DNA from: Methanobacteriota archaeon
GTDB taxonomy: Archaea > Thermoplasmatota > Poseidoniia > Poseidoniales > Thalassarchaeaceae
Direction of reading: 5' to 3'
Length of the DNA: 45,876 nt
Assembly (NCBI GenBank): GCA_002730095.1
Contig: PBZE01000047.1
Location: forward strand, 1 to 45,876
Part shown: positions 30,957-45,876 of the stretch, piece by piece
Numbering within the stretch: position 1 is the stretch's first letter
Layout: each line of letters starts with the position of its first letter
Notes under the pieces: generated by a model
Databases searched by the model: none
What the model was told of the DNA's origin: nothing
Seen by the model: only the letters and a program-made list of their open reading frames with translations
Made by a program: the position numbers and the translations under genes

Positions 30957-31385
30957 CTAACAGCATCCCTCTTCTTTCATCGGGGCGCTGATGAAGGATA
31001 CCTTGTCCACATGGGGCGTATTCTGAAGCTGCTCATAGACCGCCCTCACATGCGATGCAGTACCCCTGACGTGAACCACGTCTACACACAAATGGCACGA
31101 ATGTCCTAGCCGACTGCTGTGATGATACGCCGCTACCTCAACAGAATCAGTGCGACTCACCATCAACTTCTGCTCACTCTTCTCCTGATAATGAACGACC
31201 AAATGCCCCTCGACAATATGGCCATCATCCATATTCATCAAATCCCCTCTCTGCTGGATCTCCGCAAAGTACATCGATGCATCCCTGAGAAAGCGACTCC
31301 GGTTCTGATAGCCCGATTTTTCGATTAGACTTTCGAATGACTCAGCGAATTCCTTGTCAGCACTGAATGAAATTATTCTACTCAT
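30957..31385 (-). CDS. NikR-like metalloregulator (ribbon-helix-helix plus ACT-like metal-binding domain)
   Basis: MSRIISFSADKEFAESFESLIEKSGYQNRSRFLRDA (RHH); YHHSSRLGHSCHLCVDVVHVRGT in the NikR metal-site position; divergent from znuA-like gene. Confidence 0.78.
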   Translation of the reverse strand: MSRIISFSADKEFAESFESLIEKSGYQNRSRFLRDASMYFAEIQQRGDLMNMDDGHIVEGHLVVHYQEKSEQKLMVSRTDSVEVAAYHHSSRLGHSCHLCVDVVHVRGTASHVRAVYEQLQNTPHVDKVSFISAPMKEEGCC

Positions 31386-31410
31386 AGAACTCCGACAAAG
31401 CAATTAGTAA

Positions 31411-31437
31411 TAATAATTTTGAATTATGTAATTATTA
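31411..31437. promoter_or_regulatory. Candidate operator between nikR-like and znuA-like genes
   Basis: Perfect inverted repeat TAATAATT-N11-AATTATTA in an AT-rich divergent spacer. Confidence 0.35.
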
Positions 31438-31473
31438 GCTTTAATTAAATATGTAATAGCTACCCGAAAGGGT

Positions 31474-33717
31474 ATGAAGAGTGTAGCATACAGGTCAATA
31501 TTGCTAAGCGTACTAATGATTACATCAAGCCTTGCAGGCTGTCTAGGGGACACTGAAGAAGATAGTACTGATGATACCAATCAAATCGAGGATCCTATCA
31601 CTGTCTTCGGCTCAGTGATGGTTTCCACATATCACGTTGGTGAGCTGGTAAAGGCAGTAGCCGGAGAACATGTAGAGATCGACTACATGAGCCAGGATAA
31701 TATCCCTGTGCACGATTACGACCCATCAGCTTCTGATCTAATCAGACTACAACAGGCCGATGTCTTCTTTTATCACGGGTTGAACCTAGAACCTTGGGTT
31801 GACTCAGCTTTGGAGTCACTGGGTTCCGATGCACCCCTCTCTTTCATGACGCACAAAATGGCATCCGGAGAAACAACTCTAGATTACCAGTCTCTCTTAG
31901 TTGCTGACCTTTGTGAGCTGTTGAACCAAGGACCATTCGAAGCCACCACTCTGGGATCGATGCCGGAAGACCACGACGACCACGACGACGACCACGACGA
32001 TGACCACGACGATGACCACGACGACGAAGGCGGTATGCAGACTGCAGCGGGCCATGGCGACCACTCAGATGACGATGACCACGATGACCACGATGACCAC
32101 GATGACCATGAAGGACATGGTCACGCTATGGCCGAGAAGGTAATCCAGAATCCAGAGGCATGCCCGGCTGATACGACCATCCAGGTATTCCACATGGAAG
32201 AAGGTGAGCACGTACTAGAGTTCGAGTCAGAGCATGGGGAGGAGTTCAACATGGCGGTTCTAAAGATGCTAGGAGGGCACGCTCATCACCATCATGACCA
32301 TGGCGACGACCACGATGATGATCACTCGGACGACGAGGATGACCATGGTGAGGGATTGTGTCACAACACCGACACCCATGAGAACTACGAGTCGACGGAG
32401 GAAGACTGCGAGGCCGCAGGCCATATGTGGATGGGCCATGAAGATCATGATCTGCCAGAAATCCACGCGGACCGAGTTGCCCACACCCTCTCTTTCCCAA
32501 TTCACATAGCTGGGGACTGGGTAGACGAGTGGGGAGGTGAACACTCCATCGACTCAGACTCATGGAATGACAACACCATCACACACTATGATAATCATGA
32601 GATGTGGGCCGTCGCTCAGAACAGTGAGGATGATCAGTATTACCCAGGGCTCTGGTCGAAGTACGACTGGACATGGGAATTAGAAGAGCTGTACTACTGC
32701 CAGTCCACATTCGGCGCTGATACAGAGGCAGACGCATTGGCTGCCGAGAGCGCTAACGCTAGTGATTTAGCGGCCGGATGTGGTGGATTCCCGTGGAGCC
32801 TAATGGAAGAAGTCGGCCATGACGACCATGACGATCACGGAGACGACCACTCAGACGACGAGGGCGACCACGATGACGACCATGACGATCACGGAGACGA
32901 CCACTCAGACCACGAGGATGACCATGACGAACACCATGAAATTGGAGCAGTAATCATCCATATTGAGGAAGAAGGTGACTATGGATTTGCCATGCCCAGC
33001 GACATTGAACTCTATGTCGTAATGGGAGAAGGAGGGCATGACGACCATGGAGACCATGACGATCACGGAGACGACCACTCAGACGACGAGGGCGACCACG
33101 ATGACGACCACTCTGACGAGGATGGAGATCACGATGACCATGACGATGAGATTGAGGCTGACCAGGATGAGGAGTCATACGACTACGATCCACACAGCTG
33201 GCTCGATCCAGTTTCGTTCAACGAGCAACTCAAATTGGTTCAGGAAAAACTGACCATGGCCTTCCCAGATGGGGCTGTTGCATTCGCAGAAAACGCTGAT
33301 GCATACTCGATCGAGTTAACTGAGCTTCATGATCGCTTCGAGCAGGTACTGGGGAATCAAGGAACCTGTGTCACAGCAGGCTTGCAAAGGGTGATTGTGG
33401 CCAATCACAACGCTTACTCGTACATCTCGGTGAGGTACAATCTAGACATACTCACCATACATGGCTTAGATCCAGAAGGAGAGCCTTCACCAGCCGAAGT
33501 AGCTGAGGTCATTGAGCACATCAAGGAAGAGGGAATTACAACCCTCTTCGTTGAGGAATACACTGACCAGACAGCCGTTCAGAGCATCGTTGAGGAGACT
33601 GGCGTGGAGGTCCAGGTCCTATACACGATGGAGATGCGACCCAGTGATTCCTCGGATGACTACTTGTCCATGATGAACAAGAACATCGAAAACATATCTA
33701 GCGGAATTGGCTGCTAG
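31474..33717 (+). CDS. znuA: ZnuA-like metal-binding lipoprotein with giant His/Asp-rich insert
   Basis: Lipobox SSLAGC; VFGSVMVSTYHVGELVKAVAGEHVEIDYM, HDYDPSASDLIRLQQADVFFYHGLNLEPW, DPHSWLDPVSFNEQLKLV, FVEEYTDQTAVQSIVEETGVEVQVL; extensive HDDHDD tracts. Confidence 0.9.
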   Translation: MKSVAYRSILLSVLMITSSLAGCLGDTEEDSTDDTNQIEDPITVFGSVMVSTYHVGELVKAVAGEHVEIDYMSQDNIPVHDYDPSASDLIRLQQADVFFYHGLNLEPWVDSALESLGSDAPLSFMTHKMASGETTLDYQSLLVADLCELLNQGPFEATTLGSMPEDHDDHDDDHDDDHDDDHDDEGGMQTAAGHGDHSDDDDHDDHDDHDDHEGHGHAMAEKVIQNPEACPADTTIQVFHMEEGEHVLEFESEHGEEFNMAVLKMLGGHAHHHHDHGDDHDDDHSDDEDDHGEGLCHNTDTHENYESTEEDCEAAGHMWMGHEDHDLPEIHADRVAHTLSFPIHIAGDWVDEWGGEHSIDSDSWNDNTITHYDNHEMWAVAQNSEDDQYYPGLWSKYDWTWELEELYYCQSTFGADTEADALAAESANASDLAAGCGGFPWSLMEEVGHDDHDDHGDDHSDDEGDHDDDHDDHGDDHSDHEDDHDEHHEIGAVIIHIEEEGDYGFAMPSDIELYVVMGEGGHDDHGDHDDHGDDHSDDEGDHDDDHSDEDGDHDDHDDEIEADQDEESYDYDPHSWLDPVSFNEQLKLVQEKLTMAFPDGAVAFAENADAYSIELTELHDRFEQVLGNQGTCVTAGLQRVIVANHNAYSYISVRYNLDILTIHGLDPEGEPSPAEVAEVIEHIKEEGITTLFVEEYTDQTAVQSIVEETGVEVQVLYTMEMRPSDSSDDYLSMMNKNIENISSGIGC

Positions 33718-33754
33718 ATCTGAACCATGTTTAACAAGAAGGAGGGGGGAATAG

Positions 33755-33856
33755 ATGTATTTGTCCGATGGACTACCCATAATTTTCGTGGGCTCTATTT
33801 TCCTCCTTCTTACATGTTGGTTAGGATACGAATACGTAAGGGCTAAGTATGCTTGA
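33755..33856 (+). CDS. Candidate 33-aa single-TM small protein
   Basis: GGAGGGGGG SD followed by ATG; MYLSDGLPIIFVGSIFLLLTCWLGYEYVRAKYA; sits between znuA-like and znuC; absent from ORF track. Confidence 0.6.
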   Translation: MYLSDGLPIIFVGSIFLLLTCWLGYEYVRAKYA

Positions 33857-33942
33857 ACCAACAAATCTCCTTTTGTCATCCCTCTGTCTTCAGAGTTGGA
33901 ACGATTCTACATGCATTCGACAGGAGCTTAGTTCGTAGGGTG

Positions 33943-34734
33943 ATGATGTTGGGAAAGCCCATACTTGACGTCTGCGATCTTTCCGTGGTGAGGTCTGGTA
34001 AGCAAATCTTGGAAGACGTCTGTCTAACGGTAAATGAGGGAGAGTTCGTTGGCATAGTGGGTCCTAACGGAAGTGGCAAGTCCACATTCCTGCTATCCGT
34101 TCTCGGGATTCTGAAGGCAGAAAGTGGCTTTGTTGAGATATACGGCCTTCCTCCGACGTCAAGAAAGCTCCATAGAAAGATTGGCTGGGTTTCTCAAGCC
34201 GCGGCAAATCTTCCCAAGGATGTCAGAATTACCGTACGCGAGCTGGTCAGACTCGGAACGATAAACTCGGCAAATATGTTTGATTGGGCTGATAACGGGC
34301 GTAGAGAGAGAGTCGACAAAGCAATCAAGATGACAGGCCTCAAGGAAGTAGAGAATACTGACATTGGTCGATTATCGGGTGGTCAGAGACAACGTGCCGT
34401 CATCGCAAGAGCGTTGGCATCAGAGGCAGACTTCATTCTGCTGGATGAGCCACTGGTGGGAGTCGATCGAGACTCCAGAAACTCTCTGCTAAGGCTGCTA
34501 GACAGACTCTGTCACGACGAAGGGAAGACGATTCTGATGGTTTCTCACGATTTGACGGCGATACGTCAGACTGCACACAGGATGGTGTTCCTCGAGGGAT
34601 CTGTAAGATTTGATGGCCCCACCAAAAGCTTCCCGGATTTTCAGAGGCTGGCCGATTTGAGAGGAATTCAGGCAGTTCATGGTGATAAGGAAGTTTACTG
34701 GGAAACCACATCAAACCATAAGGAGGAATTGTGA
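33943..34734 (+). CDS. znuC: Zinc/manganese-type ABC transporter ATP-binding protein
   Basis: GIVGPNGSGKSTFLLSVLGIL, RLSGGQRQRAVIARALASEADFILLDEPLVGVD; start moved to MMLGKP behind GGGTGATG. Confidence 0.93.
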   Translation: MMLGKPILDVCDLSVVRSGKQILEDVCLTVNEGEFVGIVGPNGSGKSTFLLSVLGILKAESGFVEIYGLPPTSRKLHRKIGWVSQAAANLPKDVRITVRELVRLGTINSANMFDWADNGRRERVDKAIKMTGLKEVENTDIGRLSGGQRQRAVIARALASEADFILLDEPLVGVDRDSRNSLLRLLDRLCHDEGKTILMVSHDLTAIRQTAHRMVFLEGSVRFDGPTKSFPDFQRLADLRGIQAVHGDKEVYWETTSNHKEEL

Positions 34735-35702
34735 TGGGCCTAGGCATAGAGATTTTAGAGATTCTCGCACCAATCATGGAGTCACTTGCACCTCACATGC
34801 CGGGAGAGGTTTTCCCCGAATTTTTCACTTTAGAAATGTTCCAGCGTTCAATGCTTGCAGCCTTAATGGTAGCTATTGTGGGAGGATTCCTAGGGTCTTT
34901 CCTTCTCGTTCGTAATCTTGCATTGATAGGAGACGGACTGGCTCATGTTTCGTTCGGTGGAGTCGCCATCGGAATCGTTCTCGGAGCAACTTCTCCCCTA
35001 TGGTACGCCCTCATGTTCAGCCTCGCTGCTTCTATTCTGATTTACGAAATGCAAGCAAGAGAAATTCTAACTGGAGATGCCTCTATTGCTATTTTTCTGA
35101 CTGGAATGTTGGCACTCGGACTCGTGGTTCTCAGATACTATGGTGTGGGAATTACAGTTGAGGTTGAAAGCTACCTATGGGGGAGCCTTTTACTCACGTC
35201 CTCCGAAGATCTAGATTTGATTGCAGCTATCAGTGTGATGTCTTTCGTCCTTCTTTACCTGATTAAAGATCCATTGCTAGCAACTACTGTTGATCCATTG
35301 GCAGCATCAGTTCAGGGAATCCCTGTTCGCTTAATCGGCCTGGTTTTCAGTGCCATAACTGCGGCGGTCGTGGTGAGCATGGTGCAAGTCGTAGGCACTC
35401 TTCTTGTCACAGCTTTGCTGGTAACTCCCGCAGCCACTGCACAACAAGTAGGAAGGAGCTTTCGTTCATGTTTGATGTTTACACAGGTCTTCGGCATAAG
35501 CTCCGTTATCTTGGGCCTTTATTTCTCTGCAGAGCTCGATACGGGAAGCGGCTCAATGATCGCACTAGTTTCCGCCGTTATTTTCACTGTAGTAGTATAT
35601 CTGGCAAATGCCGACTGGCTTGCGCGTTCCTTTGCAAGCTTCCGACTACGGATCACAGGTATCTCCATACCATGGTTCGAGAGAGTCGCCCGCAGGAAAT
35701 AA
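34731..35702 (+). CDS. znuB: Zinc/manganese-type ABC transporter permease
   Basis: ABC-3 family: FLGSFLLVRNLALIGDGLAHVSFGGVAIG, VVGTLLVTALLVTPAATA; overlaps znuC stop. Confidence 0.93.
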   Translation: MMGLGIEILEILAPIMESLAPHMPGEVFPEFFTLEMFQRSMLAALMVAIVGGFLGSFLLVRNLALIGDGLAHVSFGGVAIGIVLGATSPLWYALMFSLAASILIYEMQAREILTGDASIAIFLTGMLALGLVVLRYYGVGITVEVESYLWGSLLLTSSEDLDLIAAISVMSFVLLYLIKDPLLATTVDPLAASVQGIPVRLIGLVFSAITAAVVVSMVQVVGTLLVTALLVTPAATAQQVGRSFRSCLMFTQVFGISSVILGLYFSAELDTGSGSMIALVSAVIFTVVVYLANADWLARSFASFRLRITGISIPWFERVARRK

Positions 35703-42147: not shown

Positions 42148-44289
42148 TTGATAGTCAAGAGCCTCATGCATCATGCCATGGACCTAGTCCTCATCGGCTC
42201 CTTCATCCTCTTCATGACTGCATTCGCTGGAATCGGACTTGCCAGCATGTTGGTCAAAGAAGACACCACAGACGACTACCTAGTTGCTGGCAGGGGCATG
42301 CATCCAGCGCTAGCTGCACTATCAGCCGTCAGTACATGGAACTCTGGATACATGTTCATTGGTTACATAGGGTTTACTTTCACAATGGGCTACTCTATTG
42401 TGTGGATAGCTTTTGGATCTATGGCGGGACAGATATTGGCATGGATATGGTTGTACAAATTCATTCAGCAATCGGCCAATGAACGTGGACTCAGATCTCT
42501 ATCCTCCCTCGTCTCAGAGGCGACAGGGTCGCCCGAGGCGAAACTAGCTGCCGTTCTATCCATTCTTTTCCTATCCGTCTACGCTGCTGCTCAGCTGACT
42601 AGTGGGGGAAAGGCCCTCTACGTGATGCTGGGATGGTCCGAAGTAGTTGGAATCCTGATAGGATTTGTATTGGTCGTAGCCTATTGCTATGCCGGAGGGA
42701 TAAGGGCCTCGATTTGGACTGACGCAGCCCAATCCAGCGTCATGATCCTCGGATCCTCACTACTTTGCTGGGTGGCACTGGAACAGATAGGTGGGTTTTC
42801 TGGACTTCACTCAGGGTTGGACGGGCAGAATGCCAATCTAACCAGCATTGTGCCTGCAGATTTGGGATTCGGCGTGACCCTATGGGCATTCGCATTCTTC
42901 TTGGGTGGGCTCAGCGTAGCTGGGCAACCCCAGGTTGTCACTCGTGTTATGACACTTGGAACAGATAGAGACAGGAAGACTGCGATGCTGTGGTTCTTCG
43001 CTTGGCAGACTCCCTTCCTGCTCATCATGACAATAATCGGACTGTCCAGCCGAGTAGTTTTCTCAGGAGCAGATTTTGATCCAGAGCTGGGCCTTCCTAT
43101 GCTTGCTATGGAGACACTGGGGCCATTCTGGGTTGGCTTGATCCTAGCCTCAATTTTTGCAGCTACCATGTCAACTGCAGACAGTCAGGTTTTGGCTTGT
43201 ACCGCTGCATTTACTGATGATGTAATGCCCGAGATAAGCCAAGATCACAAGAAGACAAAGATGGTTACTCTAGTTGTGGCAGCTTTCGCCACTGCCATAT
43301 CCATCTTCGGACTCTATGTCCCGGGAGGGGATTCGGTCTTCTCCCTCGTAGTCCTAGCTGTGTACGGACTAGGATCCATCTTCGTTCCAATTCTAATTAT
43401 CAGATGGTCTGGTTACGAGCCTGATACAACTCACACCACGGCAATGATGATTGCAGCATTGACAGGGGTCATTGCGTGGAGGTTGATGGGACTCAACGAC
43501 GAGATATTCGAGTCCATACCAGGAATGGGGGCTGCATTCGTCACACATTTCGTGATGAATCAGATTCGTAGTTCTGATGTTTCTCCACTTGGTCGATTCG
43601 ACCTACCAGAAGGTCAGAAATTGAAAGTAATAGCAGCCTCAATAATCATACCATTCAGCGCGATAGAGGTAACATATTTCTTAGCTGGACCCGATAGCTA
43701 TGAGTATCAGAGGAATAATGAGTATCTGATTGACTTCGAAGAGGGGATGATTACTTGGGTGGATAACACCACAGTCGAACTAAGTGACGGTGAGGTTTTC
43801 TCCTTCTCGTTGACAGATCAGGAATTCCCAGAAGAGGCCAAAGAACGGAACATATTCTCCGTAGATTATACCGTAACAGTCCTAGATAGCTTTGATGATA
43901 ACGAGGAAACAAATGGCCCTGGGTGTGTCGTTGATCCCGGCCAAGATGAAGCCGATTCGGTATCTCTTTTCGTGAGTGCCCCCTCAAATACATCCTCTTT
44001 GGAAACCCAGTCCTCAGTATACGATTGGATTGACTTGATGGCTTTCCCTCAATTTGAAACATTTCCCTTCATAACTGGCTATACTGTAGCGGAAATAGAA
44101 ATGAGCTTCGATACTAGCGACTCGGTTGTTGGGGACTATTCATTTGAATTTACGGGGAATGTGGAATCAGGAGATTCGACATTTCAATGTGATAGACAAG
44201 ATTCTACTGTCACAATTGAATACCTAATTGAATTGTGGTGGGTCGAGCCGAATGTCTTGGAGTGGAACGATGATGACATCTTTTTTTGA
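42148..44289 (+). CDS. Sodium:solute symporter (SSS family) with an acidic C-terminal extension
   Basis: VAGRGMHPALAALSAVSTWNSGYMFIG, GGLSVAGQPQVVTRVMTLGTDRD, ASIFAATMSTADSQVLACTAAFTDDV. Confidence 0.88.
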   Translation: MIVKSLMHHAMDLVLIGSFILFMTAFAGIGLASMLVKEDTTDDYLVAGRGMHPALAALSAVSTWNSGYMFIGYIGFTFTMGYSIVWIAFGSMAGQILAWIWLYKFIQQSANERGLRSLSSLVSEATGSPEAKLAAVLSILFLSVYAAAQLTSGGKALYVMLGWSEVVGILIGFVLVVAYCYAGGIRASIWTDAAQSSVMILGSSLLCWVALEQIGGFSGLHSGLDGQNANLTSIVPADLGFGVTLWAFAFFLGGLSVAGQPQVVTRVMTLGTDRDRKTAMLWFFAWQTPFLLIMTIIGLSSRVVFSGADFDPELGLPMLAMETLGPFWVGLILASIFAATMSTADSQVLACTAAFTDDVMPEISQDHKKTKMVTLVVAAFATAISIFGLYVPGGDSVFSLVVLAVYGLGSIFVPILIIRWSGYEPDTTHTTAMMIAALTGVIAWRLMGLNDEIFESIPGMGAAFVTHFVMNQIRSSDVSPLGRFDLPEGQKLKVIAASIIIPFSAIEVTYFLAGPDSYEYQRNNEYLIDFEEGMITWVDNTTVELSDGEVFSFSLTDQEFPEEAKERNIFSVDYTVTVLDSFDDNEETNGPGCVVDPGQDEADSVSLFVSAPSNTSSLETQSSVYDWIDLMAFPQFETFPFITGYTVAEIEMSFDTSDSVVGDYSFEFTGNVESGDSTFQCDRQDSTVTIEYLIELWWVEPNVLEWNDDDIFF

Positions 44290-44377
44290 TCGATGATGAT
44301 GGTGGTGAGATGGAAAACTAAGCCATACTGTTCGATCTCTAAATAATATTAAATAATCCATGAATAGACAAAGTATC

Positions 44378-44443
44378 ATGAATTGTGACTGCTGTGATTG
44401 CAGCCCATGTGGCGCAAACTGTGGATGTAACGGTTGCTGCTAG
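44378..44443 (+). CDS. Candidate metallothionein-like cysteine-rich micropeptide
   Basis: MNCDCCDCSPCGANCGCNGCC (21 aa, 9 Cys); in-frame upstream ATG at 44360 gives a 27-aa form; AT-rich TATA-like sequence about 20-30 nt upstream; absent from ORF track. Confidence 0.6.
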   Translation: MNCDCCDCSPCGANCGCNGCC

Positions 44444-44452
44444 GCGCCAACC

Positions 44453-44758
44453 CTAATCATCCAGTCGTATCTTGCCCCGCCCCTTATTCTGTATTTTTCC
44501 GACAGACGTTGTCAAAATCCGGGGTTCTCTTCCCCTAGCTGCTAGGGAAAGAATCCACCAACCAACCGTCAGTAGGGCGGTTGAAACCATTATGACAGTT
44601 CCCACCCACATCACGATATTCCCCTCTGTGACTGGCCAAGCCCAATATGAGACACCTAGCACAACCACTACAAGCAGTATTCTAGAAGCTTCACTGGGTG
44701 TTTTCCAACCTCTGTGGTCCCTCCTCGGAGCTAGCAAGTAGTCTAGCATACACCTCAC
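44453..44758 (-). CDS. Small two-TM membrane protein, function unknown
   Basis: ILLVVVVLGVSYWAWPV and IVMWVGTVIMVSTALLTVGWWIL hydrophobic segments; basic C-terminus. Confidence 0.6.
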   Translation of the reverse strand: MRCMLDYLLAPRRDHRGWKTPSEASRILLVVVVLGVSYWAWPVTEGNIVMWVGTVIMVSTALLTVGWWILSLAARGREPRILTTSVGKIQNKGRGKIRLDD

Positions 44759-44794
44759 TAAGAGAATGTACTTTTCAACAACTGTTTCAATCCG

Positions 44795-45679
44795 TCAAAT
44801 ATCCGCAGCCTCTGCTATGCCTGCAGCAATGAGGGTGTCAGCTATGATGGAAGGACAGAACTCTATGTCTCCCGTTTTGAGAGTTATTTCTTCGCCATTT
44901 TCAGTAATTATTGGGTCATCGAGGTCCTGTAGTATCAGAATCCTCCTCATTTCGGGCTCCTCTCGAACTTCCTCCCTCGTCTCTGAGTGAGGATTTACAG
45001 CCCCTGATATCTCAGGGAAGTCATCTATCTCCCTTATCCTGTCCTCTTCATCGTACTCAGGGTCTTCCCAATGCGACCCCTGCTCCTGAGGTTCCGGGCC
45101 CTCGCTTTCCACGATGGGTGGCTCCTCCACGGCCTCGCCGGGAACGAATTCTGTAAGAGGGGTATGGACGGAAGAGAGAGGGGGCGGTGCAGGTGTATCC
45201 CAATTGTTGCTGAGCAGAGATCTCCACGAGACATCATGCTTGTATTTGTCAACCAGATGGCCAACGCCAGAGTAGAAAGCTCTCTCAGATGGATCGTGCT
45301 TCTCCCATTCAATCGGATCCGGACGCATTCCAGGAGCGAGAGCGCCCTCTTCAGGTGATTGAATCAGGCTCATCAGTACGGCATGCTGAGTGAAAGCATT
45401 GAGCCTGTTTCTCGTCAGGTCCTTCACCGCAGTCCTGACAACGCCAAGCTTTCTGGATTGTAACTGGGCCTTCGCAGTCATACCCTCCGACCTGATTGTC
45501 TCAGCCAATTCAGCCTCCAGATGCTGAACTAACTGACCTACTGCGCTCCAGAATCCTGGCATCGGCAGCTCGATTGGAATCGATGATCTTCGCTGCGTTC
45601 TAGCAAGCTCATCGAGGGCCCTGTCAACTGCCATAAGACGGCTTGGACTGAGCCTAGGCAAGCTTCCGTCGTCCATCAT
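44795..45679 (-). CDS. GINS-like replication protein (archaeal Gins51-like)
   Basis: Helical N-terminal A-domain-like region (ELARTQRRSSIPIELPMPGFWSAVGQLVQHLEAEL ... VRTAVKDLTRNRLNAFTQHA) and C-terminal B-domain-like ILQDLDDPIITENGEEITLKTGDIEFCPSIIADTLIAAGIAE. Confidence 0.6.
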   Translation of the reverse strand: MMDDGSLPRLSPSRLMAVDRALDELARTQRRSSIPIELPMPGFWSAVGQLVQHLEAELAETIRSEGMTAKAQLQSRKLGVVRTAVKDLTRNRLNAFTQHAVLMSLIQSPEEGALAPGMRPDPIEWEKHDPSERAFYSGVGHLVDKYKHDVSWRSLLSNNWDTPAPPPLSSVHTPLTEFVPGEAVEEPPIVESEGPEPQEQGSHWEDPEYDEEDRIREIDDFPEISGAVNPHSETREEVREEPEMRRILILQDLDDPIITENGEEITLKTGDIEFCPSIIADTLIAAGIAEAADI

Positions 45680-45791
45680 CCTCGGTACCCGGGCCTAGTG
45701 CGTGCAAGGAGACACTTGAACAATTCTCCTCTCAAACTGCAATCTCTCTAGAAGCGCGAGTATCAAGAGTGAGACTATCCTCGCAACCCCC

Positions 45792-45876
45792 GCAGGTGTA
45801 CCCGAGTGGTCAAAGGGGGAGGGCTCAAGATCCTCTGCGTAGTGCTTCGCAGGTTCGAATCCTGCCGCCTGCACCA
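45792..45876 (+). tRNA. tRNA-Leu (CAA), with encoded 3' CCA
   Basis: Acceptor GCAGGTG/CGCCTGC, anticodon stem-loop GAGGG-CTCAAGA-TCCTC (CAA), long variable arm, T-arm GCAGG-TTCGAAT-CCTGC, then A-CCA. Confidence 0.95.

Follow-up and report, generated by a model that had tools for sequence, protein, structure and literature searches.

A 21-residue, nine-cysteine peptide gene of Poseidoniales archaea and its likely link to a NikR-like zinc regulon

Can a frame of 21 codons, nine of them for cysteine, be a gene, and if so what might its product do? The question is raised by the end of a contig from a Thalassarchaeaceae archaeon (all 45,876 nucleotides of which we refer to as the window), where the forward-strand frame at 44360-44443 translates as MNRQSIMNCDCCDCSPCGANCGCNGCC followed by a stop codon. 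The frame is unannotated and shorter than annotation cut-offs. A sequence-only reading of the window had singled it out as an un-called micropeptide with nine cysteines in 21 residues, and the claim is borne out: the frame reads as described and has orthologues in 10 of 22 genera. We find that it is a conserved protein-coding gene, a conclusion we hold with near certainty, and that its product probably takes part in zinc handling as a thiolate peptide. The features of the window that bear on this are collected in Table 1.

Table 1. Features of the peptide locus and of the nikR-znu locus in the window.
Feature	Position	Strand	Details and basis
Micropeptide gene, nine Cys	44378..44443	+	21 aa, MNCDCCDCSPCGANCGCNGCC; ORF, homologues, start set by relatives, pN/pS
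TATA-box-like TTAAATAAT	44349..44357	+	-29..-21 relative to the 44378 ATG; a leaderless transcript is predicted
Second TAAATAAT	44340..44347	+	10 bp upstream of the first; stands where relatives have an operator arm
Perfect operator palindrome TAATAATT-N11-AATTATTA	31411..31437	.	between nikR-like and znuA; 0 mismatches
NikR-like ribbon-helix-helix/ACT regulator, 142 aa	30957..31385	-	profile against PDB NikR; predicted fold
TATA box of znuA	31445..31451	+	begins 7 nt beyond the palindrome and 29 nt upstream of the ATG
znuA-like His-rich metal ABC substrate-binding lipoprotein	31474..33717	+	PF01297 ZnuA, E=5e-39
znuC-like ABC ATPase	33853..34734	+	PF00005, E=3e-29; true start perhaps further in
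znuB-like ABC permease	34731..35702	+	PF00950 ABC-3, E=2e-56

Homologues were recovered in 45 of 319 Poseidoniales genomes, from 10 of 22 genera and both families, with a degenerate DNA pattern that tolerated three mismatches and whose reversed control gave no match. The search patterns required cysteine codons, so that the invariance of the cysteines is partly by construction, and we therefore base the argument on the codons left unconstrained and on the three-mismatch tolerance, under which the only copy recovered with an altered cysteine was that of G299 (C3R). This copy (L099; MPRQCCDCNPCDSTCSCDGCC), in which Cys3 is gone and the operator region retained, is possibly in decay. The ratio pN/pS is 0.16 in frame as against 1.6 and 1.04 in the other two frames; it is 0.47 at pattern-unconstrained codons and 0.07 at Pro10, whose codon no pattern constrains, and TGT and TGC interchange freely at all nine cysteine codons. 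The protein-like substitution pattern for which the sequence-only reading had proposed to look is thus present. As for chance composition, 60 first-order Markov simulations of the window reached maxima of 4-7 cysteines per 21 residues and never nine. The tBLASTn comparison it had suggested, run against 60 relatives, found a matching short open frame in 13 genomes, the window's own included, at E<0.005. As for its proposal to look for loss or disruption of the frame in close relatives, the frame is intact in relatives and the claim stands unrefuted, with the qualification that the gene is patchy and that a 1-nt frameshift interrupts it in one relative (G090), near a contig end. We give almost no credence to the idea that the frame is a chance ORF or a non-coding RNA element: its length, below annotation cut-offs, is what one would expect of such a frame, but homologues in 45 genomes and a frame-specific substitution pattern contradict it, as do the simulations, and a search of the region against Rfam gave no match above the gathering score. 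At 44266-44337, over the end of the neighbouring symporter gene, archaeal C/D-box sRNA families match weakly and below threshold.

Relatives begin at the codon that matches position 44378 (ATG, or GTG in 3 of the 42 distinct intact copies), and the MNRQSI extension is unconserved among them and falls within the leader. We therefore take the inner ATG as the functional start, and the longer, 27-residue version that had been offered as an alternative finds no support. Cysteine makes up 43% of the peptide, and the family consensus is M-[PNA]-C-[ED]-C-C-x-C-x-P-C-G-x-x-C-x-C-D-G-C-C-stop; besides the form in the window, another form of 21 residues is MPCECCDCDPCGPSCSCDGCC. The homologues have all nine cysteines, G12 is invariant among them, P10, D18 and G19 are nearly so, and F, W, Y and H are absent from all 42 distinct intact sequences. 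The CxC, CC and CxxC spacings are kept across the 42, the recruitment of cysteines being due in part to the search pattern. The peptide is best explained as cytosolic and devoid of a signal sequence.

The promoters of the family align without gaps, with a TATA box at -29 to -20, which ends about 20 nt before the start codon, and a second AT-rich element at -45 to -38; the TATA box of the window is offset by one base relative to that of the family. Of 44 sequences, all except one have a pyrimidine at position -1 (C in 82%, T in 16%), and in a survey of some 500 kb of Poseidoniales DNA the complete promoter element stood almost exclusively before the peptide gene. The mRNA is predicted to be leaderless. 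The sequence-only reading had placed a box 21-30 nt upstream of the 44378 ATG and suggested a leaderless transcript; the box is where it said, and the aligned position of the TATA box across the family supports the suggestion.

The two AT-rich blocks of the promoter form an inverted repeat, TAWTAATT-N11-AAWTAWTA, which we refer to as the operator. With at most one mismatch it is found in 31 of 44 peptide promoters (in 30 at exactly -45 and in one at -46), and in 0.08% of shuffled promoters. Searches of 22 carrier genomes gave few sites per genome, and the reversed-pattern control gave none in any of the 22, nor in the window's genome. A plain AT-rich promoter as the source of the palindrome was considered and is refuted by the shuffles, by the lack of reversed-pattern matches in the 22 carriers and by the fixed position. 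Nearly all sites with at most one mismatch in these carriers precede nikR/znuA, a COG0523 gene, a flavoprotein gene or the peptide gene; the AT-rich genera g6 and g19 contain chance matches and we therefore make no regulon claim from them. The palindrome thus marks a regulon consisting of a NikR-like regulator encoded divergently from znuABC, a COG0523 (ZNG1-like) metallochaperone, a flavoprotein and the peptide. The flavoprotein, an FAD/pyridine-nucleotide oxidoreductase of about 390 residues with a cysteine-rich C-terminus (SCCGQECLTC in L372), follows the operator in many genomes (L372, L367, L370, L369, L380, L384, L386 and others), and in the window's genome a one-mismatch site stands before the COG0523 gene. 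In two relatives of the window (L388, near 2352, and L389, near 2414) a one-mismatch operator-like site precedes the gene for a putative membrane protein of about 355 residues, which may be a further member of the regulon or a chance match.

COG0523 and znuABC are the usual constituents of a zinc-starvation (Zur) regulon (PMC6103462, PMC2770081), and an operator common to the two sets of genes, as would mark a regulon of this type, is what we find, though the window's own peptide promoter lacks it. The nikR-like/znuABC locus of the window (30957-35702), 9 kb from the peptide gene, is likely to represent a non-Zur zinc regulon of Poseidoniales. Zur regulons and the predicted ZntR (DtxR-like) regulon of Methanosarcina have the same targets, znuABC and COG0523 (PMC6103462, PMC2770081), whereas the Poseidoniales regulon has a NikR-like regulator and adds a metallothionein-like peptide and a flavoprotein to its targets. 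Archaea were described in 2009 as lacking recognisable Fur/Zur regulators (PMC2770081), and the regulator here belongs with NikR and not with the Fur family to which Zur belongs. A profile of ten family members matched PDB structures of NikR (best E=2e-12, 2bj1, hmmsearch) and the predicted fold (pLDDT 65) gave 31 matches at E of 0.001 or less, all of them NikR, so that both profile and fold place a ribbon-helix-helix DNA-binding domain and an ACT-type metal domain in the window's regulator; the Pfam and NCBIfam models of NikR match it below cut-off, and the NCBIfam equivalog cut-offs are not reached. The likeness to NikR extends beyond this fold to a palindromic operator of two half-sites and a divergent metal ABC transporter. 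The differences lie in the sequence of the operator, in the ZnuA type of the transporter and in the metal ligands, for the NikR nickel set (H76, H87, H89 and C95, E. coli numbering) is incomplete, the second His of H-x-H being Ser. H89, H98 and C100 of the window's regulator are invariant within its own family. The NikR-like protein is a probable zinc sensor: zinc is the likeliest effector because the targets are ZnuA-type, His-rich binding proteins and COG0523, and nickel or another metal is possible because the regulator keeps its homology to nickel sensors.

The peptide gene has no fixed operon partner; we sought one and found the gene at many intergenic sites, which mostly differ between lineages. 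Its neighbours nevertheless include genes of the regulon. COG0523 adjoins it in four genomes of three genera (G244, G251, G253 and G008), together with a DUF1636 protein, and in G293 it lies 70 bp from a whole nikR-znuA-znuC-znuB cluster. A cysteine-rich DUF1636-like protein of 112-118 residues stands beside COG0523 near the peptide in L077, L078, L079 and L087. Genes for NikR-like proteins occur in 39 of 45 carriers as against 170 of 274 non-carriers (Fisher p=6e-4, uncorrected for phylogeny). Copies that lack the palindrome, that of the window included, are often physically near regulon genes. Eight copies, among them the window's, have N or D at position 2, and none of these carries the palindrome; five others lack it as well. 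In the window the best operator match in the peptide promoter has four mismatches; the copy follows a sodium:solute symporter gene, a site it shares with those of G002, G003 and G005, where the operators show partial decay. The 10-bp repeat of TAAATAAT in the window's promoter is an apparent duplication or decay of the operator, and this copy no longer has a recognisable operator; it may be regulated and expressed in a different way. The regulatory argument therefore applies to the peptide family, and for the window's own copy it is not proven.

Is the peptide, then, a metallothionein? At 21 residues and 43% cysteine it agrees in size and composition with the functional class (small, at least 20-30% Cys), and it shares with that class conserved CxC, CC and CxxC spacings and the lack of aromatic residues. 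Searches of Pfam and NCBIfam with the peptide gave no family at E of 10 or less and a search of PDB sequences matched no chain, so that these searches lend no support to placing the peptide in a known metallothionein family, and it would be metallothionein-like by composition and context. The beta domain of vertebrate metallothioneins has nine cysteines and binds metal with M3Cys9 stoichiometry. Like this domain and the copper metallothionein of Neurospora crassa (PDB 1t2y, 25 residues, seven Cys), the peptide is tiny, cysteine-dense and free of aromatic residues and His, and a C-x3-C-x-C-x2-C run is common to all three; unlike them, it is archaeal, starts with CxCC, ends with CC and belongs to a zinc-type regulon, and no sequence homology to them is detectable. 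The bacterial metallothioneins SmtA and BmtA have about 50-60 residues, His ligands and a zinc-finger fold. The peptide resembles these (Pfam Metallothio_Pro) in being rich in cysteine, and differs in having no Pfam match and a NikR-like regulator in place of Fur/Zur or SmtB; in Synechococcus WH8102 one regulator serves both BmtA and znuABC (PMC9337993). Our literature search for 'archaeal metallothionein' found no report.

We suggest that the peptide would fold around a metal-thiolate cluster, perhaps of the M3Cys9 type, and would serve as a buffer, store or donor of zinc in zinc homeostasis, with the NikR-like regulator governing its transcription in most relatives along with that of znuABC, the COG0523 GTPase and the regulator itself. 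A shared operator and the gene neighbourhood connect it with zinc-uptake genes, and we take it as a probable archaeal counterpart, though a very small one, of the metallothioneins. A metal role is indirectly supported by the zinc-type regulon and the gene neighbourhood; we infer metal binding, zinc as the metal, expression and the sign of regulation. The last turns on two operator geometries. In every znuA (17 of 17) and COG0523 (10 of 10) promoter the palindrome stands upstream of the TATA box, which begins exactly 7 nt after it, an arrangement that would fit activation or repression, whereas in peptide promoters (24 of 27) the TATA box lies inside the right arm, where the regulator, once bound, would be expected to keep TBP/TFB out. 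Control of the peptide may accordingly run in parallel with zinc uptake or opposite to it. It is possible, if short of an even prospect, that control is reciprocal and the peptide a classical store, the sensor turning on uptake at low zinc and freeing the peptide promoter at high zinc. The two geometries are rigid, as this would have it, and in archaea sites upstream of the BRE commonly activate while those that overlap the promoter or lie downstream of it repress (TrmBL1, PMC4706686; CopR, PMC7830388); in Synechococcus WH8102, moreover, Zur controls znuABC and the metallothionein gene bmtA in opposite directions (PMC9337993). The operator before nikR, however, also reaches the promoter region, as in simple autorepression, and all operator sites could instead be repressed together.

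Co-induction with znuABC is what one would expect if the peptide were a metallochaperone that passes zinc to or from the COG0523 GTPase or apo-enzymes during zinc starvation. NikR proteins usually repress in their metal-bound form, which would suit such co-induction; COG0523 adjoins the peptide in the genomes named above and shares its operator, and the CxCC at the N-terminus of the peptide resembles the CICC motif of that GTPase, a CxCC metal-site protein. No docking motif was identified in the peptide, however, and many genomes with both the regulator and the regulon lack the peptide; we regard this role as rather unlikely. Less likely still is that the peptide detoxifies copper, cadmium or another soft metal outside zinc physiology. 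Nine cysteines with neither His nor aromatic residues would suit Cu(I) or Cd(II), and the Neurospora copper metallothionein provides a precedent in size, but uptake genes of the zinc type carry the same operator, and the operator sites showed no efflux genes for copper or cadmium. A frame so short and cysteine-dense might also suggest a leader peptide for cysteine-dependent attenuation or a RiPP precursor; this we consider very improbable, as the gene is leaderless and self-standing, carriers share no conserved downstream gene or maturase, and the non-cysteine residues P10, G12, D18 and G19 are conserved.

We tentatively propose, at well below even confidence, that a NikR-like zinc sensor of Poseidoniales, and not Zur, switches uptake and a 21-residue metallothionein in opposite directions through the two geometries. 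If true, archaea would have arrived independently at a parallel to the Zur-bmtA circuit of Synechococcus, which inhabits the same oligotrophic surface ocean, and the peptide would be among the smallest gene-encoded metallothioneins known. Zinc uptake has already been noted as a surface-water trait of Poseidoniales (PMC6461757), and the peptide system would give these abundant surface-ocean archaea a testable zinc-buffering system and a testable regulator.

Lastly, we turn to the distribution of the gene. Scanned with the exact pattern, 84,980 prokaryote genomes yielded 44 matches, all in MGII/Poseidoniales or marine bins labelled 'Euryarchaeota', several of them single-cell genomes. A peptide-specific pattern found no match in 2.9 million viral contigs; a pattern of cysteine codons only, which we discarded, matched low-complexity repeats alone. 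The gene is accessory, being absent from many genomes with the regulator, including the single-contig genome G037. On contigs longer than 20 kb it is found within 2.5 kb of an end in 8 cases, against 2.5 expected. Such a position is seen in the window (44443-45876) and in G077, G090, G096, G097, G110, G244, G255, G307 and others, and the contig of G009 terminates just past the operator. The surroundings of the gene are thus likely to vary between strains, and assembly gaps account for some of the absences. In the window, a tRNA-Leu gene stands at the contig end.
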